Below, piece after piece: positions 2,926 to 48,940 of a stretch of DNA of 64,000 bases. Positions within the stretch are counted from its first letter, which is position 1. Every line of letters starts with the position of its first letter. The notes below the pieces were generated by a model. It searched no databases. It saw only the letters and a list, made by a program, of their open reading frames with translations, and was not told where the DNA came from. This stretch comes from Rubripirellula lacrimiformis (GTDB lineage: Bacteria; Planctomycetota; Planctomycetia; Pirellulales; Pirellulaceae), in contig NZ_CP036525.1 in NCBI RefSeq assembly GCF_007741535.1, positions 7,502,001-7,566,000 on the forward strand. The letters run 5' to 3'. A program made the translations under genes and the position numbers.

Positions 2926-4772
2926 CCCGTCATCGATCGCCATAGTTCGCTAGCGGCAGCAACATCGCGGTCAGTCGCTTTTCCGCGGCCGTACAGAATC
3001 CGGTTGTAGGCTTCGACCAACCTAACCGCGTGAGCCGATAGAAGTCCGGTCGAAGCGTCGCCCTGGCTCGCCGTTGCCCGTCGCAGAAATTCATTGGGGG
3101 TTTCTTCACGCGACCGCTGGATTCCCTGTTCACGACAATAGGCTTCCCAGGCTGCGAAGGTGATCACGATCACTCGGCGAGGATCTTGTTCGCGACCGAT
3201 CGGGTTCGAAAAGGATGCGAACGAACGCAGCGGTACGCTGTTTTCCTGCGCCAAGAATTCATCGAACGACGGTTGCCCGTCATCGGCCTTGGGTTGGAAC
3301 CAATTTGCCCACCACAGACCGATCGCATGGCGGTGCATCCAAACAAAGGCGACGACGATCGCCACCAACGCCAAAAAGATGATGAACTTCAACAGACTTG
3401 ATATTCCGGGCATCGCGTTGGCGACCGACCGCAACGGGTTCGACTTGGCAGCCGACGAAGACCCCTGTTTGGTCGACCCAGCATCGTTGGCATCATTCTT
3501 GTCTGCTTGCGGGCTGCGATCCTGTTTGGCATCGCTTTCATTCGACGCCGCTTGGTCTTCATTGGCGGGTGATTCGCCGGATTCGGACTTCGCATCCTGG
3601 CTTGGTTGGGAATCGTTTTGCTGCGATTCGCTTGGCGACGACTTCGCATCACCGGAATCGCCTTTGCTTTCCTGCTTGCTGTCCGAGCTGTTTGATTCTT
3701 GTTTTCCAGACGGGGCGTCCTTTGATTCCGAAGACTTGGCATCCGAGGGTCCAGAGGCATCGGGGGACTTACCTTTCTGGTCGCCTGCTGGCCCGTCTTT
3801 TCGCTGGCCCGTGCCCACGTCGCCGGCCGGCGCGTCCTTGCCCGCGGCGATGTCCTGGACTTCCTTTTCGGCCGCGTCGGGATCACCGGATGTCGACGCA
3901 GCATTTTCGCTTGTCTTATCAGCCGCCTCGTCGCCCCAGCCACTTTTGCTGGCAACGGTGTCGTCTGGCGAATCGAGGAATTCAGGAAGTTCGATCGATG
4001 CGATCAATCGTCCCGGTACCGGTGCCATAAAAGCGATGAACAAGATCAACGCGATCATGGCGACACCGCCGGCCAACCATGCGACCGTCACATCGGCAGG
4101 CATTTCAACTTTTCGCTGTCGCAAATACCGCCGCAAACCTAGAAAACTAGTGGTGACCAATAACGAAAGGCTGGCGAACAAATAGAACGCCAACAATTTC
4201 TGTGCTCGCGCCCAGGTTTCGGGATCCGAGCGCAGAAAGAACTGCCCTAGACCGAACAGTGGCAGCGCCGCCAAAGCCAGGTACATCACCGTGCGTCCCG
4301 GCTGATGAGCATTTGTACGCCGCGATGCACCGGAGTTCTGTGGCGGCTGATCGGTGATCGAATCAGCGGATGATTCGTCCGGTGGTTCAGTCGGCTTGAT
4401 CTGCTTGCGAACAAACAACCGTCCCGAGTCGATCAAACCTTGCCCGCTGGCATCCACGTCATCATCGATCAAAGTGCAGTCGCGGACGATCCGATCGGCC
4501 AGCACGGCAATCACCACCAGGATCACGGCCGAAAAGATCGGCGAATCGACGAACCGCAACATCGACACAAACGTGACTAGGCCGAGGACGCCCGCGTAGC
4601 CCATGGAATAGGCGCGATCTTTTTCGATCGCGACCCGGGCGATCGCAACGACGCCCATGGTGAACATCAATAGCGTCCAAGACACACGGGCAGGGTAGCT
4701 GCCGTGGTAGAGCACCAGCATGAAGAAATTGGCAAGGCTGCTGATCATCAAGAAGATCAACACGGGCGCCAC
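2922..4772 (-). CDS. DUF4129-type membrane protein with Ser/Asp/Lys-rich linker
   Basis: About 616 residues. Hydrophobic segments lie near residues 1-25, 30-50, 60-90, 160-180, 190-215, 230-250 and again near 465-485. Between about 270 and 455 is a low-complexity linker of Ser, Asp, Lys, Glu, Gln and Ala. The C-terminal 120 residues ([38 protein letters not shown]) match the DUF4129 domain often found with transglutaminase-like and MoxR/vWA gene sets. No catalytic residues can be named. The start is uncertain: the GTG at 4772 has no ribosome binding site, and coding-like sequence ([14 protein letters not shown]) continues upstream in frame to the stop codon of the GYF-like gene without an ATG, GTG or TTG. 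The two genes are in the same frame, with one TAA between them. Confidence 0.72.
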
Positions 4773-34677: not shown

Positions 34678-34715
34678 AAAGCCGCCGCACGCACTGAGAT
34701 TCCTTTGACTTGGAT

Positions 34716-34721
34716 GAGGAG
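34716..34721 (+). promoter_or_regulatory. Ribosome binding site that sets the RHS gene start
   Basis: GAGGAG lies 9 nt before the ATG at 34731. It supports that ATG over the TTG at 34710, which overlaps the site itself. Confidence 0.75.
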
Positions 34722-34730
34722 CCCACTCCG

Positions 34731-37700
34731 ATGCGAACTGAATCGACTGCAAAGACCGACCGGTCACACGACACTCCCAAACGTCGTCTATTGGTCGAAC
34801 AGCTTGAAGATCGCCGCCTGCTTGCCGGAGACATGGAACCACCGCCGGGCGAAGTCCACCAGCCAAACCAGTCGTCCGCTGCGGGATTTTCGTCCACGAC
34901 GACATCCAATCATACGCCACCGGATGATGGCAACGATGCATCGATCACGGAGTCAGATGCCGCGTCCAACATCCACCTGGACTCTCTGGAATACCGCTTC
35001 GAAGGTGGCCGGTCGATCTCTTCCGCATCCGACCAATCGCCGCTGTTTTTGTTCGGACACGCCGAAGGCGAGATGAACGATGGCTTCGGTTATGACTCCT
35101 GCAGCTACGGCGGCAGCTTCTGTTCTCCTGTTCCGGACCCATCACCGGATCCTGCCCCCGACCCAACGCCGAACCCGGTTCCCAATCCGAATCCAGACCC
35201 AACACCGAATCCGAATCCAGACCCAACACCGAATCCGAATCCAGACCCACGACCGAATCCAACACCCACCCCGAACCCGGATCCAACTCCCAATCCGACA
35301 CCGGCTCCCCATCCGAATCCGGGACCACCCAAGGGGCAAGTGCAAATCACGAATTCGTCATTCTATGAGGGTACTGAAACGACTTTTCGGGTCATTGGAA
35401 CGGGTCTGACCGGTGCGGTGTTCGTCAACATCGAACTGGTGGACGGTAGCGCCAAAGAAGGCTTGGACTTTCGCGACAGTGGGCCATTGTTGGTGTCGCT
35501 GTATCCGGACGACATGGGCAATGCAGAGACGGTCATTTATGTCACCGCGATCGATGACAACCTGGCCGAACGCAGTGAAACCTTTACGGTGGATGGCAGC
35601 ATTGCTTCGGGATTCGCCACCGTTATCGCCGATGGCACCGGCACCATCTTGGACGACTTCGACATCAATTACAAAGTCACGCTGACGCCCCACAGCAAGA
35701 CCGAAGGAAACCAAGGCTACCCTGAAACAACTCACGATCCCGCGATGGTCACGTACACAGCCACGATCGATCCGGCACCCGTCCCCGACGATGTGATCAC
35801 CGTCGATTACACGCTGTTCAACCCGACATGGTTCATGATCGAGCATCTGAATGAAGTCTTCCCGGCCAGCAGCAACGATTGGCGTCACGCGACGCTGAAC
35901 CAAGATGGCACGACGCTGGACTACACCCCCATGAACGACCAGCATGTCTATTCGGGGACTTTAACCTTCACCGGCGACTCTCCCACCAGCCAATTGATCT
36001 ACGCCCCGCTCAATGGTGAATGGCATGCCGAATATGACGAAGTGATCGCCGCAAAGCTGACCGGATCAAGTGCAACAAGACCTTACAACCACTTGATGGG
36101 CGAGATCACGGTATCGCATGAAACAGAGACCGAGTTTGCCTTGATCGAAAACGACGACGCGCACTACGAACTGAGCGTTTCGGACGCCAGCACCATCGAA
36201 GGCCAGGACGGCTGGAACGACCCGAACATCATGGAATTCGTCGTCTCCGTCGGGCCATCCATCCCATCGGGGCACAAACTGATCGTCGACTACGCGGTCA
36301 GCGATATCACCGCCACGCATGCAGTCGACTGGAAACTGGCCCAGCCCAACGGCGACGGTTACGAAATCATCGAAGGCGATACCGGAACAATCGAATTCCT
36401 GCCGGGGCAATCGACTCAAAAGGTCTATGTCGCGATCAATGGCGACTCGATGACCGAGGAAGAGGAAAGCATCCAACTGGAACTGGTGTGGACCGATTCA
36501 ACCGGCATCAGCTCCACCTACATCGACCGCACCGCGATCGGCGTGATCCGTGACGATGATTCGCCGATCGACATCACGGTCGACGACACCTGGGTGATCG
36601 AAGGAAACCACTATTTCGACGATCCGAACATCCTGAAGTTCAAGATTGAACTATCGCGTCCGCCGTCTGCCGGACACGAGGTAAAGGTGAAATACGATGT
36701 CCGAACGATCACGGAAGCGGAACTAGCGAGCGAAAAACAGATCACCGAGAACCAAATCAAATACATGGCTGGGCCAATATTTGACTGGAAACTAGACGGC
36801 AAGCACCAGAACAACGTGTACACCGAGATCGCCACTTTTGCCGCCGGTGAAAGCGTTCAAGAGGTGGATGTCTTGGTCCGCGGCGACTGGTTGGAAGAGC
36901 AAAGCGAATACCTGACCCTCGAAATCACGATGGAAGGATCGACTGCACCAGACGGTACCGACGGTCCCCAATTGAACGTTCCCAATCGGATCGCCATCGG
37001 TGAAATACGCAACGACGACACACCCATCGAAATCGAAATCGGCGACCAAGAATCGGTCGAAGGGAATGACGGGTGGGACCCCAGCGAGGTCAAACTGTTG
37101 AAATTTCCTGTCACGCTCTCTCGCGCCCCCAATTCTGGCGAGGTCATCCATGTCCACTACGACGCCAGCGAACTGGACCAAGACGACATCACCGAAATCG
37201 TCGGCGAGACGGACGATTGGACCGAACATATCGCAGTGTCCCCAGCCGACTGGAAACTTGCCAAGTACGACGAAGAGGGTGACCTGCAAATCAGCGACAG
37301 CAACACGTCCGGCACGCTGAAGTTCGAAGAGGGGCAAACAACCCAAGACGTCATCGTGGCGATTCACGGAGACCGTGATGTCGAACTGACCGAGTTTATG
37401 AAAGTGGAAATATCCGAAGCCTATTCAGAGAAATCCAGCATCGGACAGGAGGTCACCGTCATCGTTACAGATGACCAGGCGATCGGCACGATCACCAACG
37501 ACGATCTACCGGTGACCTTGGACGTCAGCGACGGGATCGACTTTGAATTCAGCCCCATCTTCTTCGCTCCCGGAAAGGTCTATTTCAAGATCTCGATCGA
37601 TGGACCTGTCGGGCAACCTGTCACGGTCAACTACGCGACCGCCGACGGCAGCGCCATCAGCGGCGAGGACTACATCACGAAGAAAGGCTCCTACACGTTT

Positions 37701-40700
37701 GGGCTGGACCCAGACCCTGACCAGGATGGCAAGCCGCTGGAACACACCGTCATCGTCGACCTAGCGGACGACAACATCTATGAACAAACCGAATCCTTTT
37801 ATCTGAAAGCCACCAGCGATAGCCCGTGGATCAAAAACCACGAAGCGGAGGGGACGGGCGACATCCTGGACGACGAAGAACGCCCGACCGTCAGCATCCA
37901 CGACACGTACGGCGAAGAGGGCAATACGTTTTTCTTTAAGACCACACTCAGCCATCCGTCCAAGTTTGACACCGATCTGACGGCCTGGACTTCGGACGGC
38001 ACCGCCAAACATCTGCTGGACTACACGGGGTTCCCCAGCGACGGCGACAACAGCAACGGCATCCTAAACCCGATCTCGATCACCATCCCGTCCTATAGCA
38101 CGTACACGAACGTCGCCGTCCCCACCATCGACGACAACCGAATCGAAAGCCACGAACAGTTCAACGTCCACATCGCACTGCCCACCGACACGGGATCCGG
38201 TGGCGCCCCGCTGCCGGCGGAAAATGCCGTCCAACCCGGCGATATGAATGCGTTGGGGACCATCGTCGACAACGACTACCAACTGTCAATCGGCAACGGA
38301 TCGGTCATCGAAGGCAATTCCTTTTACGAGGCGCCCAACACCATTTCGTTCCCCGTCACGGTTTCACCGAGTCCGCAAAAATGGAAAGTCATTTTCGTGG
38401 ATTGGGAAATTCGCGAACTCGGATCGAACTCGGGATTCCCCGCCAACCTACATGCAGAAACCCCGGACGATTTCCGACCGCTTTCGTGTGGCAGCACCAG
38501 TGGCCCGATCGGCAGTGACGGGCCACAGCATGGAACGCTGATCATTGGCGGAAACTACGGGAGAGACCAGAGCATCTCGGTCGCGATCAATGGCGACTGG
38601 AATCCCGAGAGGAATGAAAAATTCGAAGTGGTGCTCAGCAACGCACGACTCAAAGAGGACCTCGGCTATCCCGTACCCTCCAGCCCCCAAACACCGACCT
38701 GCAACACCAATCTGCCGTCGTTCCCCGCTGCTGCCCTGGGGTCAGTGACCATCACCGACGCACAAGGAATCGGCACCATCGTTGACGACGATGCATTTGA
38801 ATTTGACTTTGACCGACACTACGACTGGTTGGGACCAGACAACCCGAACGTGACCGTCGAATCGGGCGGCACGACCGCCAACTGGAATGATGCAGAGGGC
38901 ACTGCGATCCTTGGCATTGGCGCCGACCCGTTCGGCAGCCTGCATATCGACGGCCCGTTCGCCCCACGCCAAATCAGCCACTGGGAAATCCAGGTCGACA
39001 AGGACTCCACATTTTTGCCCGACTCGTATTCCGTCAAAATCGAAGCGGGTGGCACCGAACTGGAAGAGTTCTATGTCACCGGCGATGATCACTTTGCGTT
39101 CGGCAAGGCTCTGAAGTTCAACGGCGACGAAGGCCTGTACAAGAGCGACGTGACCGTGACCGCTCTGGTTAACGCGGGTGTTAGTGAACCGATTGGTTTT
39201 GGCAAATCGAAAGAGTTCATCTTTCCGGTGGTGAACCTGGACGATAGTGCGGGCGGAAAAGGATGGCTGGCCAACGAGACCTATCGACTGTTGCCGGTCA
39301 TCGAGGTTGATGGGACGCGGCCGTCCACGCTGCAGGAATCCGACGGGCTGGGACTGCTGAAACCCGATGGCTCGGTTTGGCACTACTCCAGCGCCGACGC
39401 CGGTACTTACACCGCCCCCGAAGGCACTTTCGAAAAACTAAAGTTCGAATACGACGAATTCGTCCTGCAAGGGACCAGCGGTGAAACACTCTATTTTGAT
39501 GCGCTCGGGCGACTCGATCGCAGGGAAGATCGAAACCACAACACTCGCAGCTATTCCTATGTCGACGGGAACGGCGATGGGGAACCGATGGAAATCGGCA
39601 CGATCACCAGTGCGACCGGTCTGGAAACGACCTTTGACTACGACGGCGGCACGCTGAACACCGTGACGGACTTTGCTGGCCGCGTGTGGACCTACGATGT
39701 CGTCGCCGACAAACTGGAACAAATCACGTGGCCCGACCCCGATGACCATGGCCCGTTGCCTGCTGCCGTCTGGCAGCTTCAATACGACGCAAGCTCGGAT
39801 CTCCCTAGACTGCTGCGAGACCCAGCGGGCGGCGAATCCAGTTTCCAGTACGACACGATCACCGACTACAACGTGGACTCGGAAAGCGGTGCGATCAACT
39901 GGACCTTCGACATCCATCGAATCGCACAGTTCACGCGTGCGGACGATGCCGTTCGTCAAATGGACGCGTTAAAATGGAAAGGTGTGGTCGACATCCCCAC
40001 GTCCAAGGATGCACCGTTCGAAGGGATCGATCCGGAGACGATCTTCGCATCCGTGGACTTCCTACAGGTGACAACCCAAACGTCGATGGACGATTTCCAG
40101 CAACCCACCGACATCACCACCAGCCACGAATTCACCGCCCAGATCACTCGCAACGAAGATGGTCTCCCTGAACAGATCCAGCAAACATCGGACGCCGACA
40201 CAGACACCGAAACAACCTACACGTACGACGATTTTGGAAGACCGCTATCGATCACAACCTCACGCGGCGTGGAAGAGTACACCTACGATGAAACCACCGG
40301 CCAGATCACACAGCACACCGACCGTCTGGGTCGGGTGACGACATACGATCTGGACGAATACGGCAATGTGCTGCATGTTTACAAAGAGATTTCATCGATC
40401 GCCAACAATCCCGACAACAACCGATCGGGCTACATCGGATCATCGACGAACCCGGCCGATCGGTTCGACGCCAACGGCGATGGCATCGTCAATGCGAATG
40501 ATGCGAGTGCCGTGCTGACAGGCATCCAGAGTTCCGCGACCGCCGCCGGATGGCTAGACGTTGACGGTGGCGGCTATGTGTCGGCCTCCGATTCGCTACG
40601 AATCATCAACTACCTTGGCCGGTTGAACCAACACGAACCCGAGCATGCGGTTGAAAGCTTCACGTACACGTCGGCAGGCTCGGCACTGGCGGGACAGATA

Positions 40701-43700
40701 GAAACCATCACCGACCGCGATGGATTGGTGACGCGATACGAATACTATCCGTCCGGCCATCGGGCGGGGCTGGTTTCCAGCCAAACGATCGGGGATGGCA
40801 CGACGGCGCCTCGCACGACGACTTACGATTACGACAACCGACGCAACTCAACGCAAGTCGTCGATCCTCAATCGCGACGACGAGATACCGCGTATGACAA
40901 TCTTGACCGCCCGTACGCAACCTCACGCGTGATGGCCGATTCAACTCCGTTGGAATATTCGCTGACGGGTTACGATGTCCTCGGCGCAGTGCTGTACCAA
41001 CACGACATGTTGGCCAATCGGCGAGTGGACTATCCGCAGCGTGACGCCATGAGCCGTCCAAAGAAGGTCCTTCAACCGGAGATCTACGGCATTCGTCCGG
41101 AGCAGACCTATACGTACGATGAATTTGGGTTCTTGGCGAGCGCCACGGATGCCCAACTTCGGCGAACCGAATACGACTATCAAGACGGCCGGCTGACCCA
41201 GAGCCGGACGCCCGGTGCGCTTCCCCAGACGACCGTCACGACCCAGTACACGTACACAGCGTCTGGACGTTTGCTCAGCGAGGTTACGACCGGATCCAAT
41301 GGCGAATTCTCTGAAACACAATACAGCTACTTTGACGACGGACTGCTGGAATCGAGCCGACAATCATCACATGCCAACCAGTCGATCTCGCAGCGGCATG
41401 ACTACGATGCGATTGGACGAAAGATTTCGACGCAGACCGCCGCAGGCACGACTCGACTGGTCTACGACGACCTGAACCGTCACGTCCAAACAATCCTCCC
41501 GTCGCCAAGCATCACTTCGGGGGACGGCAAAACGCCGATCCTTTCCACCCTGTTCGATGCGTCCGGGGCTCCCTCGGGCAATCGAGATGCACGCGGCAAC
41601 TTTACGGTTTCGGAGCTGAACCTGTTCAACGAAGTCGTCCAAACCAAATCGCCTGATCCCGATGGCAACGGGCCGCGACAGCCGATGGTGACGACCTACC
41701 AACGCGATGAATTTGGGCGAGTTCAAACCAAGACGAATCCGGCAATGAGCTTGGGGCAGGGCGTCATCACCACCTTCCAGTACGATGGCAATGACCGCGT
41801 CACCTCAGCCTCTCACTTTGACCCCGTCTTCGGCGATCAGGTCACGCAGACGCAGTACTACGATTCGCTGGGACGAGTCCTGTATTCCGCCTCGGGTGAC
41901 GGAACCAGCCAACAATTCATCTATGCGGTCCCCGGGATCGATTCGCCAACCACGATCAAGCTGCTGGACAGGTCCAAAAGCGAATGGTTGACCACGAACA
42001 TCCAGTACGACCAATACGGCCGCACCCAAAGCGTGACCGCCCCCGACGGCCAAGTCACTCAGTATCAGTATGACAGCGCCGGAAATCGAACGCTTGTCGA
42101 CAATGGAGTTCGCCAGAGCTATCTCTACGATGACTTCGGCCGCATGATTCAGGAAACGGATTCCCTCGGCATCACCACAGAGTACAGCTACTACGACAAC
42201 GGCCAACTGCGCCGTCAACGCAGCGGCGACAATGTGACAACCTACACCTACGATGCTGCCGGTCGCCGCCAGACGCTAGAGGACAGTGCTGGCAATATCA
42301 CGTCGTGGACCTACGATCCCCTGGGGCGAGTGCAAGCAGACGCGAATCCAACCGGCGCCCTCCGAACCTTTCAGTATGACGCGGCCGGCAACGTCACGCA
42401 GGTCACCAACCGCGACGGTCTGGTGACGCAGTACGAATACGACAATCTGGGTCTATTGACCGGCGAATATTGGATGGACCCCGACGCCCCGAGCCAATAC
42501 GTCAAAGAATTTGAGTTCCTCTACGATCCCGACGGAAGCCTACGATGGGTCAGCGACGCTGACACCGTCAATGCACTTTCGCATGATGGATTCGGACGTC
42601 TGCGGTCTGAATCATCCTTCGTGATGGCCTTCGACGATTGGGCAACCGTCCACTTTGATTACAACCCATTTGGCGACCGGACCGTCCGCGAACTGGACGT
42701 TCCCGCAACATCGGGAACGGAATTGTCGGACGTCTATGGATACGACAGTTTCGGCAGAACCAATTCGATCGATCGCGACAACGGTCCTGGACGTGGTGGC
42801 TTGCAGGCGAGTTTCGGATACGACCAAGCCAGCAGGTTGACGGCGGTCACCACGGGTACCACCACCGGCCCAGTGGTCGATACAGAATATCAATTCGATG
42901 CAGCTGGACGCCTGCATTCGATCCAGCATGACTTGTTGCAGAATGCTGGCGGCACGTCTCCCGCCGAACTAAACTATACACTGACCTACGGCGACAAAAC
43001 GACGTTGCTAAGACAGATATACTCAAACCTCGATGGCGTGCAATCGTTCACCTACGATGCCGCCGGACAACTCGACCAGGTTCAGTCGACCCTCATTGAC
43101 CAGCCGAACGATTACGACTTTGACGCCGCCGGGAATCGAATCCGAGTTGCCGATGGTAACTCGGTTCAAGACCTGGACGTCGCTGCCAACAACCAACTGG
43201 TCAGTGATGGCAAATATCAGTATCGGTACAACCAAGAAGGGGCAAGGATCCAACGCGGAACGGCGTCCGTTGGCGATGCAGGGTTTGATCGAGTCGTGAT
43301 CACGGAACTGATGGCCAACCCGACCGACCCGGACGCGCAGTACATCGAACTTGCCAACGTGGGCAGTTCGCCAGTGAACTTGTCCGAGTGGACGATCCAA
43401 GACGGATTGGAATTACGGATCCCCGCCGGTGTCACACTCGATCCGGGAGCAATAGCGGTGTTCGCCAACAACCCAACGGCCTTCGAATCCGCCTATGGAA
43501 CAGCCATCTCTCTCGCAGGAACCTTCAACGGTTCCCTGGATCCGAGCGGCGAAACCCTGACACTGCAGCGTGCCGATGGCTCAGTCGCAGATGTCGTGAC
43601 CTATGGCGGCAACGGATGGCCGACCGCTGGAGTCGGCGAAGCGATCCAAGTGATCGAGCCAACATCGCCAAACAATGTCGGCGACAACTGGGAAACCGTC

Positions 43701-45476
43701 CCCCACGGAACTCCCGGCAGCCACAACAGCATTGCACCGTCCACGAGCCCCGGCGGCGAAACCGGAGGATACGGGGGTGGTGGATACGGAAGCGGTGGAT
43801 ATGGAAGTGGTGGGTACGACTACGGGAGCTACGGAAGCGGAGCAGACAGCTACGGCGGGTACGAAAGCAGCGGGTCCGGCTACGACGACAGCTATGAAAC
43901 TTACCAGTGGGATCACCGCGGGCGACTGACCGACATCCGCGTCTTTGAAGACGGCAACCCATACCGTCACGTGCAATACACCTACGACGCCTTTGACCGA
44001 CGCGTTGCCAAACAGATCGAGGAATACAGTTCTAGCTACGACTACAGCGGCTATGACGGCAGCAGCGACGGGAATCCCGACGATGGCGACCAGCGATATG
44101 TGCATGATGGCGATCACCTGATCGCGGTCATGGACCGCGATGGCAATGTGATCGAACAGATTCTGCACGGCCCCATGGTGGACCAAGTGCTAGCCGAAGA
44201 ACACTTCGACGCTGTCACAGGCCAGCGACAGGACGTCAGTTTTGCGGCCACCGACCATCTCGGTTCCGTCCGCGACGTTCTCCGTTGGGATGAAGCGGCC
44301 GACACGGTCGTGGCTCAGACCCACATCTACTACGACGTCTTCGGCGTGGAGACCGAACAGACCAACTCCGAGGTCCAGACTCGATTCGGCTACACCGGGC
44401 GTCAACGCGACCTCGAAAGCGACCTCTACTACTACCGCGCCCGCTACTACGATCCCGCCAACGGCCAATTCATCAGCCAAGACCCCATCGGCTTCAACGC
44501 CGGCGACTCCAACCTCTACCGCTACGTAGGCAATAGCCCAACAAACGCCACGGATCCAACGGGACTCGTGCTCGTAGCATTTGAGGGGACCGGAAACAGT
44601 GACCTAAATACAGACTTTGATATTCCTGCACGAACTAACGTAAACATATTTAGACGCAACTACGATGGTCGAGTCCTATACTATGAGGGAGTTGGCGTAC
44701 GAAGTACAGATCTTTTCGGCGCCGCGTTTGGGGAAGGCGCCAAGAAAATCATCTACTCTGCCGTGAACGATGTAAAACGTCATTTCGACAACAACCCGAA
44801 TGCCGAGCGAGTAATTGACGTCATCGGTTTCTCTCGTGGCGCCGCTGAAGCTGTTGACTTCACGAACGAAATCATTGACTACGCAAACGCTAATGAAATC
44901 CTAATTCGCTTCGTCGGACTGTTCGACACGGTTTTTGCGATGGGATTGTCGAATGACATTGAGCCTGGATTCACGACCACGGTGCCTGCAGGAATCATGA
45001 CATTCCACGCAATGGCACTCGACGAGCACCGAAAGACCTTTCGGGTTAAACGTCAAAGTACCGCAGCAAACCAAGAACTTGTAACTGAGGTTTGGTTCGC
45101 TGGCGCTCATTCGAATGTTGGGGGTGGATACCTTGATCGAGGACTCTCTGATATTGCTCTAGGATGGATGATTGATCGAGCGAGAGAGTCTGGCGTTCCC
45201 GTGGCACAAGTGCCGCTGTCACCCGACGCAACTAATGGTGTTTTACGAGATTCGTACGATGAATACGTTGCCAACCGTTTCTTGAAAGTGGTCGATTCTG
45301 GATTTGCTCATCGCACGGTACGATCGACCGATATGCTCCATAACAGCGTTTGGTCACGCGGATCATATGACATGCGTTATCGAGCTAGACTCGAAAACTA
45401 CTATCGCTGGAGTACGCCTCAGTTCACGGACTCAGGGCGAGAATCAATTCCGAGACCAATTCCTCCAATGAAGTAG
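34731..45476 (+). CDS. Giant surface RHS protein with C-terminal DUF2235/Tle1-like lipase module
   Basis: 3581 residues. Residues 25-32 read LEDRRLLA, the planctomycete LEPR-XLL type export motif. A Pro/Asn/Asp linker spans 130-202. Calx-beta-like repeats follow to about 1360 (VEGNDGWD, DDTWVIEGNHYFDDPN). RHS/YD repeats start near 1585, with a dockerin-like insert at about 1892-1970 (FDANGDGIVNANDASAVL, LDVDGGGYVSASDSL). A lamin-tail domain lies at 2852-3000 and a Gly/Tyr linker at 3010-3057. The RHS core ends near 3280 with YRARYYDPANGQFISQDPIG and NATDPTG. The last 300 residues match DUF2235 lipases: FEGTGN, Ser3368 in GFSRG, and WFAGAHSNVGGGY. This is the layout of a contact-dependent toxin: a coated cage with a phospholipase tip. 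Base composition drops in GC from about 44570. Confidence 0.9.
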   Translation: MRTESTAKTDRSHDTPKRRLLVEQLEDRRLLAGDMEPPPGEVHQPNQSSAAGFSSTTTSNHTPPDDGNDASITESDAASNIHLDSLEYRFEGGRSISSASDQSPLFLFGHAEGEMNDGFGYDSCSYGGSFCSPVPDPSPDPAPDPTPNPVPNPNPDPTPNPNPDPTPNPNPDPRPNPTPTPNPDPTPNPTPAPHPNPGPPKGQVQITNSSFYEGTETTFRVIGTGLTGAVFVNIELVDGSAKEGLDFRDSGPLLVSLYPDDMGNAETVIYVTAIDDNLAERSETFTVDGSIASGFATVIADGTGTILDDFDINYKVTLTPHSKTEGNQGYPETTHDPAMVTYTATIDPAPVPDDVITVDYTLFNPTWFMIEHLNEVFPASSNDWRHATLNQDGTTLDYTPMNDQHVYSGTLTFTGDSPTSQLIYAPLNGEWHAEYDEVIAAKLTGSSATRPYNHLMGEITVSHETETEFALIENDDAHYELSVSDASTIEGQDGWNDPNIMEFVVSVGPSIPSGHKLIVDYAVSDITATHAVDWKLAQPNGDGYEIIEGDTGTIEFLPGQSTQKVYVAINGDSMTEEEESIQLELVWTDSTGISSTYIDRTAIGVIRDDDSPIDITVDDTWVIEGNHYFDDPNILKFKIELSRPPSAGHEVKVKYDVRTITEAELASEKQITENQIKYMAGPIFDWKLDGKHQNNVYTEIATFAAGESVQEVDVLVRGDWLEEQSEYLTLEITMEGSTAPDGTDGPQLNVPNRIAIGEIRNDDTPIEIEIGDQESVEGNDGWDPSEVKLLKFPVTLSRAPNSGEVIHVHYDASELDQDDITEIVGETDDWTEHIAVSPADWKLAKYDEEGDLQISDSNTSGTLKFEEGQTTQDVIVAIHGDRDVELTEFMKVEISEAYSEKSSIGQEVTVIVTDDQAIGTITNDDLPVTLDVSDGIDFEFSPIFFAPGKVYFKISIDGPVGQPVTVNYATADGSAISGEDYITKKGSYTFGLDPDPDQDGKPLEHTVIVDLADDNIYEQTESFYLKATSDSPWIKNHEAEGTGDILDDEERPTVSIHDTYGEEGNTFFFKTTLSHPSKFDTDLTAWTSDGTAKHLLDYTGFPSDGDNSNGILNPISITIPSYSTYTNVAVPTIDDNRIESHEQFNVHIALPTDTGSGGAPLPAENAVQPGDMNALGTIVDNDYQLSIGNGSVIEGNSFYEAPNTISFPVTVSPSPQKWKVIFVDWEIRELGSNSGFPANLHAETPDDFRPLSCGSTSGPIGSDGPQHGTLIIGGNYGRDQSISVAINGDWNPERNEKFEVVLSNARLKEDLGYPVPSSPQTPTCNTNLPSFPAAALGSVTITDAQGIGTIVDDDAFEFDFDRHYDWLGPDNPNVTVESGGTTANWNDAEGTAILGIGADPFGSLHIDGPFAPRQISHWEIQVDKDSTFLPDSYSVKIEAGGTELEEFYVTGDDHFAFGKALKFNGDEGLYKSDVTVTALVNAGVSEPIGFGKSKEFIFPVVNLDDSAGGKGWLANETYRLLPVIEVDGTRPSTLQESDGLGLLKPDGSVWHYSSADAGTYTAPEGTFEKLKFEYDEFVLQGTSGETLYFDALGRLDRREDRNHNTRSYSYVDGNGDGEPMEIGTITSATGLETTFDYDGGTLNTVTDFAGRVWTYDVVADKLEQITWPDPDDHGPLPAAVWQLQYDASSDLPRLLRDPAGGESSFQYDTITDYNVDSESGAINWTFDIHRIAQFTRADDAVRQMDALKWKGVVDIPTSKDAPFEGIDPETIFASVDFLQVTTQTSMDDFQQPTDITTSHEFTAQITRNEDGLPEQIQQTSDADTDTETTYTYDDFGRPLSITTSRGVEEYTYDETTGQITQHTDRLGRVTTYDLDEYGNVLHVYKEISSIANNPDNNRSGYIGSSTNPADRFDANGDGIVNANDASAVLTGIQSSATAAGWLDVDGGGYVSASDSLRIINYLGRLNQHEPEHAVESFTYTSAGSALAGQIETITDRDGLVTRYEYYPSGHRAGLVSSQTIGDGTTAPRTTTYDYDNRRNSTQVVDPQSRRRDTAYDNLDRPYATSRVMADSTPLEYSLTGYDVLGAVLYQHDMLANRRVDYPQRDAMSRPKKVLQPEIYGIRPEQTYTYDEFGFLASATDAQLRRTEYDYQDGRLTQSRTPGALPQTTVTTQYTYTASGRLLSEVTTGSNGEFSETQYSYFDDGLLESSRQSSHANQSISQRHDYDAIGRKISTQTAAGTTRLVYDDLNRHVQTILPSPSITSGDGKTPILSTLFDASGAPSGNRDARGNFTVSELNLFNEVVQTKSPDPDGNGPRQPMVTTYQRDEFGRVQTKTNPAMSLGQGVITTFQYDGNDRVTSASHFDPVFGDQVTQTQYYDSLGRVLYSASGDGTSQQFIYAVPGIDSPTTIKLLDRSKSEWLTTNIQYDQYGRTQSVTAPDGQVTQYQYDSAGNRTLVDNGVRQSYLYDDFGRMIQETDSLGITTEYSYYDNGQLRRQRSGDNVTTYTYDAAGRRQTLEDSAGNITSWTYDPLGRVQADANPTGALRTFQYDAAGNVTQVTNRDGLVTQYEYDNLGLLTGEYWMDPDAPSQYVKEFEFLYDPDGSLRWVSDADTVNALSHDGFGRLRSESSFVMAFDDWATVHFDYNPFGDRTVRELDVPATSGTELSDVYGYDSFGRTNSIDRDNGPGRGGLQASFGYDQASRLTAVTTGTTTGPVVDTEYQFDAAGRLHSIQHDLLQNAGGTSPAELNYTLTYGDKTTLLRQIYSNLDGVQSFTYDAAGQLDQVQSTLIDQPNDYDFDAAGNRIRVADGNSVQDLDVAANNQLVSDGKYQYRYNQEGARIQRGTASVGDAGFDRVVITELMANPTDPDAQYIELANVGSSPVNLSEWTIQDGLELRIPAGVTLDPGAIAVFANNPTAFESAYGTAISLAGTFNGSLDPSGETLTLQRADGSVADVVTYGGNGWPTAGVGEAIQVIEPTSPNNVGDNWETVPHGTPGSHNSIAPSTSPGGETGGYGGGGYGSGGYGSGGYDYGSYGSGADSYGGYESSGSGYDDSYETYQWDHRGRLTDIRVFEDGNPYRHVQYTYDAFDRRVAKQIEEYSSSYDYSGYDGSSDGNPDDGDQRYVHDGDHLIAVMDRDGNVIEQILHGPMVDQVLAEEHFDAVTGQRQDVSFAATDHLGSVRDVLRWDEAADTVVAQTHIYYDVFGVETEQTNSEVQTRFGYTGRQRDLESDLYYYRARYYDPANGQFISQDPIGFNAGDSNLYRYVGNSPTNATDPTGLVLVAFEGTGNSDLNTDFDIPARTNVNIFRRNYDGRVLYYEGVGVRSTDLFGAAFGEGAKKIIYSAVNDVKRHFDNNPNAERVIDVIGFSRGAAEAVDFTNEIIDYANANEILIRFVGLFDTVFAMGLSNDIEPGFTTTVPAGIMTFHAMALDEHRKTFRVKRQSTAANQELVTEVWFAGAHSNVGGGYLDRGLSDIALGWMIDRARESGVPVAQVPLSPDATNGVLRDSYDEYVANRFLKVVDSGFAHRTVRSTDMLHNSVWSRGSYDMRYRARLENYYRWSTPQFTDSGRESIPRPIPPMK
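35184..35249 (+). repeat. 24-nt tandem repeat coding the proline linker
   Basis: Two full copies and one partial copy of a 24-nt unit starting AATCCGAATCCAGACCC. It encodes NPNPDPTP in the RHS protein's linker. Slippage would change the length by eight residues per unit without a frame shift. Confidence 0.9.
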
Positions 45477-45503
45477 GCAATCCAAAGATTGCGACATCTC
45501 CGA

Positions 45504-45908
45504 ATGAACACAAAATCCATCTGGACGCTAGCTGCAGGCATCTTTTTCCAAATCTCCTTCACTGGATGTTCTGGCAAGACGAGCCAATTCTCATTTATCA
45601 ACAGTTCGGGACACAAAGTTTTCGTTGAAACTCTCGCGCCAATAAATCCAAAAATCGCTTGCGGGCTACTGGGAGAATATGAATCCTCCGCGACCGTGCC
45701 CCCAGAATACGTCCCTGAACAGCTCACCCTGACATGGTTCAAGGTAGATAGCGAAGGCATTGCTCGGGAAACTCCAATCATCGAACAGATCTCCATTGGA
45801 AATTTTGACTCTAGCACTGATCGAACTTGCTTGGAAATCGCATACAGAGGAGAAAACAAATGGGAAGCTCGTTTCAAGGGGCATCTTGCGTCAGCTGGAT
45901 CAGAATAG
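45504..45908 (+). CDS. Small lipoprotein, candidate immunity protein
   Basis: 134 residues. The N-terminus (MNTKSIWTLAAGIFFQISFTGC) is a lipoprotein signal with a lipobox ending at Cys22, so the mature protein would be lipid-anchored facing the periplasm. The rest has strand-like text (FSFINSSGHKVFVETLAP, LTLTWFKVDSEGI) and no family I recognise. It starts 27 nt after the stop of the RHS toxin, with similar lower GC. Tle1-type phospholipase effectors elsewhere are neutralised by periplasmic lipoproteins encoded beside them, so immunity is the best guess. The upstream TTG at 45489 is less likely. Confidence 0.68.
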   Translation: MNTKSIWTLAAGIFFQISFTGCSGKTSQFSFINSSGHKVFVETLAPINPKIACGLLGEYESSATVPPEYVPEQLTLTWFKVDSEGIARETPIIEQISIGNFDSSTDRTCLEIAYRGENKWEARFKGHLASAGSE

Positions 45909-46290: not shown

Positions 46291-46421
46291 ACGAAGCAAC
46301 GGAGGAGCGTGTCCGCAGCCGTCATTGGCGCGGCCCTGGTCGCCCGCAAACGGAACTGCCGACAAGATGAGTCGCACCGTGTTGGAGACACTAATTTCGT
46401 CGGGAAATGGCTACTCAAGGA

Positions 46422-46850
46422 CACGCCACATTGGCTCCGTTTGTAGTACCGGCTTCAGCCGGAATCGAGCCGGGGCATTGGACATGAACAGAGCCAGGAA
46501 AGGAGAGGAAAGGCCGGCTGAAGCCGGTACTACGAACGGAACGTATGAACGAACGAGAAGAGTCTCGACGCGCCGGTAAAATCGCCGGGGTTTGGTCAGT
46601 CAGGGCACGCCACATTGGCTCTGTTTGTAGTACCGGCTTCAGCCGGAATCGGACCGGGGCATTGGACATGAACAGAGCCAGGAAAGGAAAGAAAATCCGG
46701 CTGAAGCCGGTACTACGAACGGAACGTACGAACGAACGAGAAGAGTCTCGACGCGCCGGTGAAATCGCCGGGGTTTGGTTCGTCAGGACACGCTGCATTG
46801 GCTCCGTTTGTAGTACCGGCTTCAGCCGGAATCGGACCAGAGAATCGGAG
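46422..46850. repeat. Tandem 184-nt repeat with hairpin-forming ends, cluster 1
   Basis: Units begin CACGCCACATTGGCTC at 46422, 46606 and 46789 (the third is cut short at about 46850). Each full unit contains TACCGGCTTCAGCCGGA (from 46443 and 46627) facing its complement CCGGCTGAAGCCGGTACTAC (46514-46533 and 46697-46716) across about 50 nt that include AGGAAAGG tracts. Only the forward half is present in the third (46810-46832). The CCGGCTTCAGCCGG core is itself self-complementary. It resembles a dispersed, MITE- or REP-like element. The gap between 46850 and the gene at 46943 shows nothing else. Confidence 0.88.
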
Positions 46851-46942
46851 ATAAAAGTCAGCACGGCACACAGCTGTTTCCGACCCAAATTTGACGCAGT
46901 AGCCGTGTTCCTTTCCCCATCCACAGACATGACGGGATCACA

Positions 46943-48022
46943 ATGAGATTGCTTGCCATTCCCCTGATACTTCTTGCGGCCTTCCTTGCTGAGACACTGC
47001 TTGCCGACGAACCTGATGGAGTCGTCTACAGTTTGATCGAGAGTGACTGGCCTACTGAACACGGAGTCGCATTCTACGCGCGTCAGTTCATAGAATTGGA
47101 CGATGGCGATACGATTCCGTTGTGTCATGGCATCACGCATGTAGTAACGAATCCGCAGTCAACGCACTCCCCTAAGACGCTTCCCAGCGATGGCTCACAA
47201 CAACCGAAAGCTCAATTTGACTATCTTGAACTGAAAAACGATTCCAACACACGAGTAATCCCAGCAAGCCTGACCCCCATGACATGGGACCTCGCCCCGC
47301 AACCGGGACAGCCAACCGCTTCGGCTATCGAGCTAGACCAATCACGAAAACTGACACTCCGCCCCCTCGCTTTCGTGCATTTACCGGAAAACGTGATCAC
47401 CAAGAGCTCCGTCTATGTTGGCAACAGTCCAGTCATGATAGATCGCCAAGAAAATGTCTATCTCATGAAGGCTGCAGGGCTACTAAAATTGGAGAACCCA
47501 AGCATCCGAAAGGCTGTCGACTTTGCTCGCACGCGTGAAGAGAAACGATTTCAGGTGAGATCCAGCCCCGGTGTCGACTTTATCATATTGATGGTAGACA
47601 AAGCGGCTTGGGCAGTCTCGAACGACAGTGTCCTACCGCTCCCAAGCTCCACCGAATTCAACATCTTCTACCCCTTCGGAAGCAGTTCAGAATCATCGGT
47701 TTTGCTAACCGGTTCGGTAGATGAGATTTTCGAACTGCGAAAGACAAGCGACTTTTCTTTGTCGCGAAGTGGCTGGCAAAAAGATCCATTGATGATCACG
47801 ACCGCCTACGCAAACGGACAACAAATATTTGTACGTGAACTGACTCTCGAGATTATAGAGTCGACCGATGAAAGCATTCAAAGCATCGCCAGCAGGGGCA
47901 CTCTGACGGTACTCACTGGCGATCAGGTGCAACAGATCCCGATTGACGCATCCAAGTTCTTCCCGGACCGCAATCGCGACAACAAGAAATCGCCGGGTGC
48001 CCCAGCGACAGTAGCTGATTGA
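46943..48022 (+). CDS. Secreted protein of unknown function in the toxin locus
   Basis: 359 residues. The N-terminus (MRLLAIPLILLAAFLAETLLADE) is a Sec signal peptide, probably cleaved after residue 21. No domain recognised. The mature chain is mixed alpha/beta with stretches such as VVYSLIESDWPTEHG, SKLTLRPLAFVHLPE-like text and VDFIILMVDKAAWAV. Codon use is more AT-rich than the core genes of the window. It sits between two clusters of the hairpin repeat, and a decayed copy of its 3' part lies upstream, so the unit has been duplicated. It might be a second immunity or accessory protein, but nothing in the text proves this. Confidence 0.72.
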   Translation: MRLLAIPLILLAAFLAETLLADEPDGVVYSLIESDWPTEHGVAFYARQFIELDDGDTIPLCHGITHVVTNPQSTHSPKTLPSDGSQQPKAQFDYLELKNDSNTRVIPASLTPMTWDLAPQPGQPTASAIELDQSRKLTLRPLAFVHLPENVITKSSVYVGNSPVMIDRQENVYLMKAAGLLKLENPSIRKAVDFARTREEKRFQVRSSPGVDFIILMVDKAAWAVSNDSVLPLPSSTEFNIFYPFGSSSESSVLLTGSVDEIFELRKTSDFSLSRSGWQKDPLMITTAYANGQQIFVRELTLEIIESTDESIQSIASRGTLTVLTGDQVQQIPIDASKFFPDRNRDNKKSPGAPATVAD

Positions 48023-48143
48023 CGCAGCAATGGAGGGGCGTGTCATTGGCGCTTACCCCTGTCAACTGCAAACGGAACTGCCGACAAGATGAGTTGCACC
48101 GTGTTGGAGACACTAATTCTGTCGGGGAATGGTTACTCAAGGG

Positions 48144-48400
48144 CACGCCACATTGGCTCTGTTTGTAGTACCGGCTTCAGCCGGAATCGGACCGGGGCAT
48201 TGGACATGAACAGAGCCAGGAAAGGAAAGGAAAGGAAAAGAACGGAAAGGAAAAGAACGAAAAGCCGGCTGAAGCCGGTACTACGAACGGTACGTACGAA
48301 CGAGTAGAGTCTCGACGCGACAGTAAAATCGCCGGGGTTTGGTTTGTCAGGACACGCCGCATTGGCTCCGTTTGTAGTACCGGCTTCAGCCGGAATCGGG
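48144..48400. repeat. Hairpin repeat, cluster 2, with expanded purine tract
   Basis: One full unit (48144-48352) and the start of a second (48353-48400) of the same repeat as at 46422. The forward arms start at 48165 and 48374 and the reverse arm is at 48265-48284. The AGGAAAGGAAAAGAACGG tract between the arms is about 29 nt longer than in cluster 1, which suggests slippage. The 120 nt before the unit also match those before cluster 1. Confidence 0.88.
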
Positions 48401-48940
48401 CCGGGGTATCGGATAGGAACAGAGCAAGCAAAGAAGATCCTCCTGAATGAGTCGACGCCTGGGATCGCAATTGAGCGAATCCATCTCGTCTCTGAAGGCA
48501 CCGTTACGTCATCAAGTGGGAAGCTTGATCCTGACGAAAACGGCATCATTCAAGTTGGATCACTGATACAAGGAGACATCCAGTGTCTGCTAGTGATCGA
48601 CCTCTCCATGGACAATGAAGCGATCGGCTCGGAGATTTACCAGCTAAGCTGCGAACGATGGGCTCCGTTGGACGAGCAGGGCGAACGCATTTCGAAATGG
48701 CGGGGAATCGAGTTGCGGCTGGTGGCGTGGTGCAGCCAACGACGCGACGGATCAGCCCAGCTTCGGGACTTGTCAGCGTCCGCTGGGGCTCAGCTGTCTA
48801 TTGGCGACGCGAAAAGACTGCTGGATGCCTTCCGGCAACGGAGCTTTCGATGGTGGGCAATACCTGGATTTCGATTCCCACCTTGGATTGGCTTGGGGCC
48901 ATGCATTGCCGGTCGTCACAAGCTTGAGTGGAAACGGTGA
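48344..48940 (+). pseudogene. Truncated gene fragment beginning inside the hairpin repeat
   Basis: The open frame runs 198 residues, but its first 25 (FVVPASAGIG and surroundings) are translated repeat. From about 48440 the text looks like real protein (RIHLVSEGTVTSSSGKLDPDENG, CLLVIDLSMDNEAIGSEIYQLSCERW). From 48798 it overlaps the end of the convergent DUF255 gene and loses coding character. I read it as the 3' part of a gene whose start was lost when the repeat moved in. Family unknown. It may still be expressed as a short protein. Confidence 0.5.

Follow-up and report, generated by a model that had tools for sequence, protein, structure and literature searches.

A predicted Tle1-type lipase tip on a giant RHS protein of the planctomycete Rubripirellula lacrimiformis, and its candidate immunity lipoprotein

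Tle1 of P. aeruginosa, an effector of the type VI secretion system (T6SS), has a lipoprotein immunity protein and carries a membrane-anchoring module at residues 451-882 (PMC13133936). DUF2235, the name that older papers give to Pfam family PF09994, is listed in a 2012 census as Tox-ABhydrolase-1, a polymorphic toxin domain associated with RHS repeats and with T2SS or T6SS, with planctomycetes among its lineages; its table row gives no immunity family, SUKH proteins are said in the text to serve two kinds of alpha/beta hydrolases, and Imm65 is described as the sole lipoprotein immunity protein of the collection (PMC3482391). The initial annotation of the locus presented here took its lineage to be one where such systems are little described, which is true only in part, given that the same census lists DUF2235 RHS toxins, planctomycetes included (PMC3482391). 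A literature search, covering sources that were accessible in part, returned no report of an RHS-Tle1/lipoprotein pair of this kind in planctomycetes.

The locus lies in a window of 64,000 nucleotides, the whole stretch of R. lacrimiformis DNA that was analysed. Its RHS carrier gene (34731..45476, + strand; P0004) is an intact frame of 3,581 residues with a C-terminal lipase tip. Near the N-terminus, a stretch containing RRLLVEQLEDRRLLA (34779..34835, +) matches the planctomycete extracellular motif PF07595 at 26.4 bits, a margin of just 0.9 bit over the Pfam cut-off of 25.5, and agrees with the planctomycete surface-export consensus RRLxxExLExRxLLA (PMC8567305). Reading by eye, we find ExLExR-like motifs also in the carriers of G158, G065 and G097. 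Pfam further recognizes Calx-beta (PF03160; two stretches pass, the best at 37578..37820, +), RHS repeats (PF05593, E 4.4e-46) and, within the RHS region, a dockerin type I stretch (40464..40616, +) and a lamin tail domain (43287..43607, +). RHS proteins undergo autoproteolysis at DPxG, and in our reading of the sequence the core ends at such a boundary, NATDPTG (44544..44564, +), near residue 3280 as initially annotated. The carrier has the layout of RHS polymorphic toxins, with RHS repeats, a DPxG boundary and then a toxin-type domain, and the PF07595 match supplies the exported or secretion-associated N-terminus of such proteins. From these motifs, the giant carrier is probably surface-exposed.

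Past the boundary lies a Tle1-type phospholipase-like tip of 303 residues, 3279-3581, with low GC3 (44565..45473, +), supported by Pfam, alignment, structure model and composition. The initial annotation had assigned it to DUF2235/Tle1, and the profile check bears this out: the tip scores 87.3 bits against PF09994 (cut-off 27, E 1.5e-24). Alignment places the proposed nucleophile at Ser3368 (codon 44832..44834, +) in GFSRG, as annotated, the proposed triad acid at Asp3399 (44925..44927, +) in FDTV and the proposed triad histidine at His3460 (45108..45110, +) in AHSNVGGG, so that the tip sequence has the Ser-Asp-His triad with GxSxG of the Tle1 catalytic domain. All three residues are invariant across seven RHS tips; among 28 relatives of the tip, Ser and His are invariant and Asp is present in at least 90%. 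In the alignment of these 28, the tip itself has Glu where FDGT has a near-invariant Asp. The model of the tip adopts an alpha/beta-hydrolase fold that is closest to Tle1, with VIA-align scores of 21.6 for 4o5p, 20.8 for TleB (9j3f) and 20.6 and 19.7 for the Tle1-VgrG structures 6ski and 6sjl, whereas generic hydrolases score at most 14.9, under all Tle1-type structures. Foldseek, comparing the whole tip model with 4o5p, gives a TM-score of only 0.53 and an rmsd of 7.6. These computations support the assignment of the tip as a Tle1-type alpha/beta-hydrolase with a putative Ser-Asp-His triad. In the C-terminus of the carrier, tip included, nothing corresponds to the membrane-anchoring D2-D4 module of P. 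aeruginosa Tle1, because the carrier stops 121 residues past the triad His and is too short for it.

The next gene, 27 nt past the carrier gene, encodes a predicted lipoprotein of 134 residues (45504..45908, +) with lipobox FTGC and Cys22 (codon 45567-45569); both size and gap agree with the initial annotation, and this lipoprotein call, like the others made here, is based on the lipobox motif and not on SignalP. A lipoprotein signal and a gene directly downstream of a toxin-type gene are traits of Tli1-like proteins, and the adjoining lipoprotein is most likely the antidote to the tip. No Pfam family matches it at E<=10, a null result to be read knowing that HMMER filters discard most weak matches, and a word-based search among 5.8 billion proteins returned no homologues. 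Membership of DUF3304, the Tli1 domain, was considered and rejected, with no Pfam match to E 10 and no NCBIfam match to E 1. The structure model of the lipoprotein alone is poor (pLDDT 57). Nor do the candidate immunity lipoproteins of the various loci form one sequence family: when eight single sequences were compared pairwise with hhalign and BLASTP, the sole significant pair was formed by two paralogues in the G065 locus (E 7e-12). The G097 lipoprotein, identified by reading frames, is without match in Pfam and NCBIfam scans. Some of these proteins resemble one another by eye, a resemblance to which we give no evidential weight.

Base composition changes within the carrier gene itself. Ten residues inside the tip, after residue 3288, lies the GC changepoint, the strength of which none of 1000 block shuffles matched. 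GC3 is 0.685 in the core, 0.465 in the tip and 0.470 in the lipoprotein. The tip has lower GC3 than the core in all seven RHS-Tle1 loci, and the next gene is nearer to the tip than to the core in five of the seven (exceptions: G065, G580). Tip and lipoprotein gene seem to have been acquired together and, because of their base composition, we infer that they came from a lower-GC source and that the DPxG boundary is where they joined the native carrier. The tip occurs in one of 22 genomes of the genus, being absent from all 21 congeners searched; a query with the RHS half is matched in 12 of the 22. Wherever the DPxG motif was found in the 12 matching RHS stretches (L198-L209), a different sequence follows it, as would be the case for variable C-terminal tips on related carriers, the comparison being one of stretches and not of established one-to-one carrier orthologues.

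How often does a lipoprotein follow such a tip? A lipobox frame is the next gene in 6/7 RHS-Tle1 loci with a readable next gene, a small set, as against 5/50 non-RHS relatives of the tip (Fisher 8e-5); the rule, which was drawn up after these lipoproteins had been seen, accepts any frame of at least 60 aa that starts -60 to +300 nt from the stop. With a stricter lipobox rule the counts are 5/7 and 4/50 (Fisher 0.0006). Five of the six frames overlap the carrier gene or start within 30 nt, and a gap of 198 nt separates the G674 lipoprotein from the short RHS piece upstream of it. Besides G674, incomplete carriers are those of G580, cut by a contig edge, and G527, whose start is unresolved. The controls are planctomycete loci that match the tip profile A1 at E <= 1e-6 and extend for 350 bases or more past the stop, loci with shorter flanks being excluded, and some are closely related to each other; the five positive ones are L046 and L047, both giant non-RHS proteins, L119, L150 and L148. 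The frame at L148 is GC-rich and appears spurious. RHS fusion was called from the 75 residues upstream of the tip, in those of the 146 ORFs matched by A1 whose tip starts past residue 60; loci without fetched sequence were classed by frame length alone, a criterion that can overlook short RHS pieces such as the ones in G580 and G674. One locus at a contig edge (G020:C14), which ranked best after our own in one tip search, was excluded, and two further RHS-Tle1 proteins (P0005, P0006), whose downstream gene is not visible, stand outside the count. Among RHS genes of the genus with other tips, a lipobox frame is next in 0/9, counted after setting aside three of the 12 stretches that extend past the fetched DNA (L199, L200, L202), and one of the nine (L201) has only 161 bases past its stop.

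These counts bear on two other ways of reading the pair. Such enzymes have a nutritional role in planctomycetes, and the carrier might be a surface lipase secreted to scavenge nutrients or turn over the envelope, with the lipoprotein as its foldase, anchor or secretion partner. The Calx-beta, dockerin and lamin-tail domains would suit such a protein, and in the MafA case a lipoprotein has been proposed to anchor a polymorphic toxin (PMC3482391). We nevertheless consider this account unlikely: lipoprotein sequences differ from locus to locus, their composition matches that of the tip and not of the carrier in five of seven loci, and such a lipoprotein seldom accompanies non-RHS relatives of the tip and follows none of the nine other RHS ends of the genus, the one with 161 bases included. 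Alternatively, the lipoprotein could be an unrelated neighbour, with the immunity gene elsewhere or absent and the toxin possibly inactive. Its orphan sequence, its poor model and the Glu in place of the FDGT Asp are in keeping with this, yet a lipoprotein occupies that position in six of seven loci, shares its composition with the tip and accompanies an open frame with a conserved triad; we regard mere adjacency as very improbable.

The remaining alternative concerns delivery. That no T6SS gene was in view, as the initial annotation had it, is true of the 21 proteins scanned in the window (a subset of the window ORFs, the pair included), among which Pfam found no VgrG, PAAR or DUF4123, but not for the genome, where a cluster at about 3.073-3.083 Mb encodes TssA, TssB, TssC, Hcp, a gp25-like TssE, TssF, TssG and VgrG. 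Imagine that this T6SS injected the carrier as an RHS effector and that the lipoprotein were ordinary Tli-type immunity, a scenario in line with the lipoprotein immunity of the T6SS effector Tle1 (PMC13133936). The cluster, however, lies more than 4 Mb from the carrier locus, and VipB was found in only 3/7 carrier genomes, the four others being listed as 91-99% complete. T6SS RHS effectors usually have PAAR at their N-terminus. At that position the carrier bears the planctomycete surface-export motif, and its Pfam matches include no PAAR, for which reason T6SS delivery is unlikely from sequence, and this scenario as a whole seems to us quite improbable.

We judge it probable instead that the locus is a toxin-immunity cassette on a planctomycete surface RHS protein, presenting a lipase tip to a neighbouring cell while the lipoprotein protects the producer. 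What stands of the initial toxin-immunity reading is a predicted pair well supported by position, composition, exported neighbours and an accessory tip. The carrier would be exported by its N-terminal surface signal and display a Calx-beta/RHS stalk; the tip would be delivered to the neighbouring cell and cleave membrane phospholipids through its putative triad; and the lipoprotein would sit in the producer's own envelope, bind the tip and shield producer and kin. Tip and lipoprotein may have arrived jointly and been joined to the native carrier.

Compared with Tle1/Tli1a of P. aeruginosa (PDB 4o5p; PMC13133936), the pair shares the Pfam catalytic domain, the fold, the triad and a lipoprotein gene directly downstream, in some cases duplicated, but the planctomycete domain forms the C-terminal tip of an RHS protein without the D2-D4 module, no VgrG or adaptor match lies beside its gene, and its lipoprotein has no DUF3304 match. 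With the Tox-ABhydrolase-1 toxins (PMC3482391) it has in common the same domain on RHS, planctomycete lineage included; unlike that entry, it has a proposed lipoprotein partner and a carrier with a planctomycete surface signal. Imm65 is likewise a lipobox-anchored immunity protein of a polymorphic toxin system, as the candidate here would be, but its toxin, Tox-JAB-1, is a JAB domain and is listed in Bacteroidetes (PMC3482391). In Neorhodopirellula pilleata (P0007; G158, L041), an RHS core carries a tip 47% identical to ours (alignment A1); the lipoprotein gene starts within the carrier stop codon and encodes 169 aa without sequence similarity to the 134-aa protein, and VipB was not found in that genome.

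More tentatively, planctomycetes may possess a T6SS-free form of contact-dependent killing, in which ExLExR-exported giant RHS proteins bear exchangeable tips, a minimal anchorless Tle1 among them, and each lipase tip is matched by a fast-changing or convergent envelope lipoprotein outside DUF3304; we hold this broader view as a possibility, with some doubt. If the reading is true, RHS toxins of the DUF2235 type, which the 2012 census lists with no immunity family, would gain a class of partners, the lipoproteins encoded by the next gene. The pair is compact and suited to testing in E. coli, and a drop in composition at DPxG together with a lipoprotein as next gene offers a search rule for further pairs. 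Toxin delivery in planctomycetes would then be linked to their own surface signal instead of to a T6SS.

The carrier RHS gene, read from an ATG at 34731 on the forward strand (open frame 34710-45476), encodes 3,581 amino acids. By Pfam, the protein begins with PF07595, an extracellular motif of planctomycetes, and a Tle1-type catalytic domain (PF09994, E 1.5e-24) comes last, with Calx-beta domains, RHS repeats and a dockerin stretch as further domains; a lamin tail domain also lies within the RHS region (43287-43607). The RHS core ends in NATDPTG (residues 3272-3278), and the tip runs from residue 3279. Counting from the ATG, the motifs named in the initial annotation lie where it put them, and the RHS-lipase gene with a lipoprotein beside it, which it described, is real. 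Membership tests assign this putative pair to PF09994 and the RHS polymorphic toxins. The second gene (45504-45908, forward strand) starts 27 nt past the carrier stop and encodes 134 amino acids with a lipoprotein signal and, judged by motif, the lipobox FTGC. In a word-based search of 5.8 billion proteins it matched nothing but itself.

Within the genus, the tip is present in only one of 22 genomes, while a query with the RHS half finds matches, many of them partial, in 12 of the 22, our own included. We fetched 12 RHS stretches from the congeners G190, G172, G181 and G185 and from our own genome: the tip is absent from these congeners and has no second copy at home, and none of the nine RHS ends with a stop in the fetched DNA is followed by a lipobox frame (locus L201 being tested on 161 bases only). 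The final stretch of the core together with the tip is 43-48% identical to three RHS-Tle1 proteins (P0005, P0006 and P0007), and the other RHS stretches are 22-30% identical. The tip is an accessory module. In the congener G172, the gene behind the RHS tip at L204 (G172:C4) starts at -4 nt and encodes a 210-aa product that looks cytosolic, which makes it a candidate for a different kind of immunity gene. Our genome holds another RHS protein (C1, near 6935624-6946588), which lies in an open frame of about 11,650 codons and whose C-terminus differs.

Base composition changes within the carrier gene. The maximum-likelihood GC changepoint lies behind residue 3288, so that the first ten residues of the tip precede it, and its score was matched by none of 1000 block shuffles. 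GC3 drops from 0.685 in the carrier to 0.465 in the tip, and the lipoprotein gene has 0.470; of 12 further genes measured in the window, 11 range from 0.627 to 0.704. Tip and lipoprotein look jointly foreign. In all seven RHS-Tle1 loci the tip has a lower GC3 than the core, and in five of them the next gene is nearer the tip than the core (exceptions G065 and G580).

Long direct repeats lie on both sides of the twelfth of these genes (46943-48022, 359 aa, GC3 0.553): two copies of 180 nt (46334 and 48056, 92%) and three of 165 nt (46508, 46691 and 48255). The gene has no Pfam match and was found in none of 21 congeners; the region (46334-48419) may be a mobile cassette.

Is the partner gene a regular companion of such tips? 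Searches of overlapping sets of 241 family, 396 order, 392 phylum and 397 class genomes yielded seven RHS-Tle1 genes with a readable next gene, and in six this gene encodes a predicted lipoprotein, at gaps of 27 nt (our genome, G000), -1 (G158, Neorhodopirellula pilleata, source of P0007), -4 (G065), 2-3 (G097), -4 (G527) and 198 nt (G674). In the seventh, G580, the next gene encodes 219 amino acids that include a hydrophobic stretch near the N-terminus but lack a lipobox. Under the same lipobox rule, devised only after the lipoproteins had been seen, 5/50 non-RHS relatives of the tip, taken from planctomycete loci, are positive, against 6/7 (Fisher 8e-5); with a stricter lipobox the counts are 4/50 and 5/7 (Fisher 0.0006). 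Scans of the six lipoproteins gave no Pfam match above cut-off and no NCBIfam match, and no significant alignment was found between lipoproteins of different loci. The partner gene is recurrent in position, not in sequence.

Behind the RHS-Tle1 gene of G065 stand two tandem lipoproteins (L042:3773-5873) that are paralogues (E 7e-12, about 27% identical), reminiscent of Tli1a/Tli1b. Separately, long non-RHS proteins with divergent Tle1-like ends occur in several genomes (L043-L047, L049 and L050 in genus g42; L048; L051); several frames approach 4,000 codons, the ends carry GWSRG or GFSRG plus HGEIGG-like motifs, and lipobox frames adjoin L046 and L047 downstream.

The initial annotation had no T6SS gene in view, which needs correcting for the genome as a whole: ours has a T6SS cluster with TssA, TssB, TssC, Hcp, a gp25-like TssE, TssF, TssG and VgrG at 3.073-3.083 Mb (C1:3073586-3083172, L214). 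As a delivery route we nonetheless favour surface display over T6SS injection, since the N-terminal motif of our carrier agrees with the consensus published for surface export (RRLxxExLExRxLLA, PMC8567305), similar ExLExR motifs, read by eye, lie near the carrier starts in G158, G065 and G097, Pfam finds no PAAR in the carrier, and VipB was detected in only three of the seven carrier genomes. The pair falls outside complete T6SS Tle1.

In a 2012 collection (PMC3482391), DUF2235 is listed as Tox-ABhydrolase-1, with RHS repeats and T2SS or T6SS, and planctomycetes are among its lineages; its row names no immunity family. According to the same paper, two kinds of alpha/beta hydrolases are served by SUKH proteins, and Imm65 is the sole lipoprotein immunity in that collection. 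A 2026 study (PMC13133936) shows that Tli1a is a lipoprotein of the outer membrane and carries a DUF3304 domain, for which a beta-sandwich is predicted; when those authors co-produced Tli1a with Tle1, E. coli was not rescued. We considered DUF3304 for our lipoprotein, which by sequence is not a member. Carrier tip and lipoprotein are quite probably best read as a putative toxin-immunity pair, and we propose that it would act like Tle1/Tli1a and the polymorphic toxin systems.
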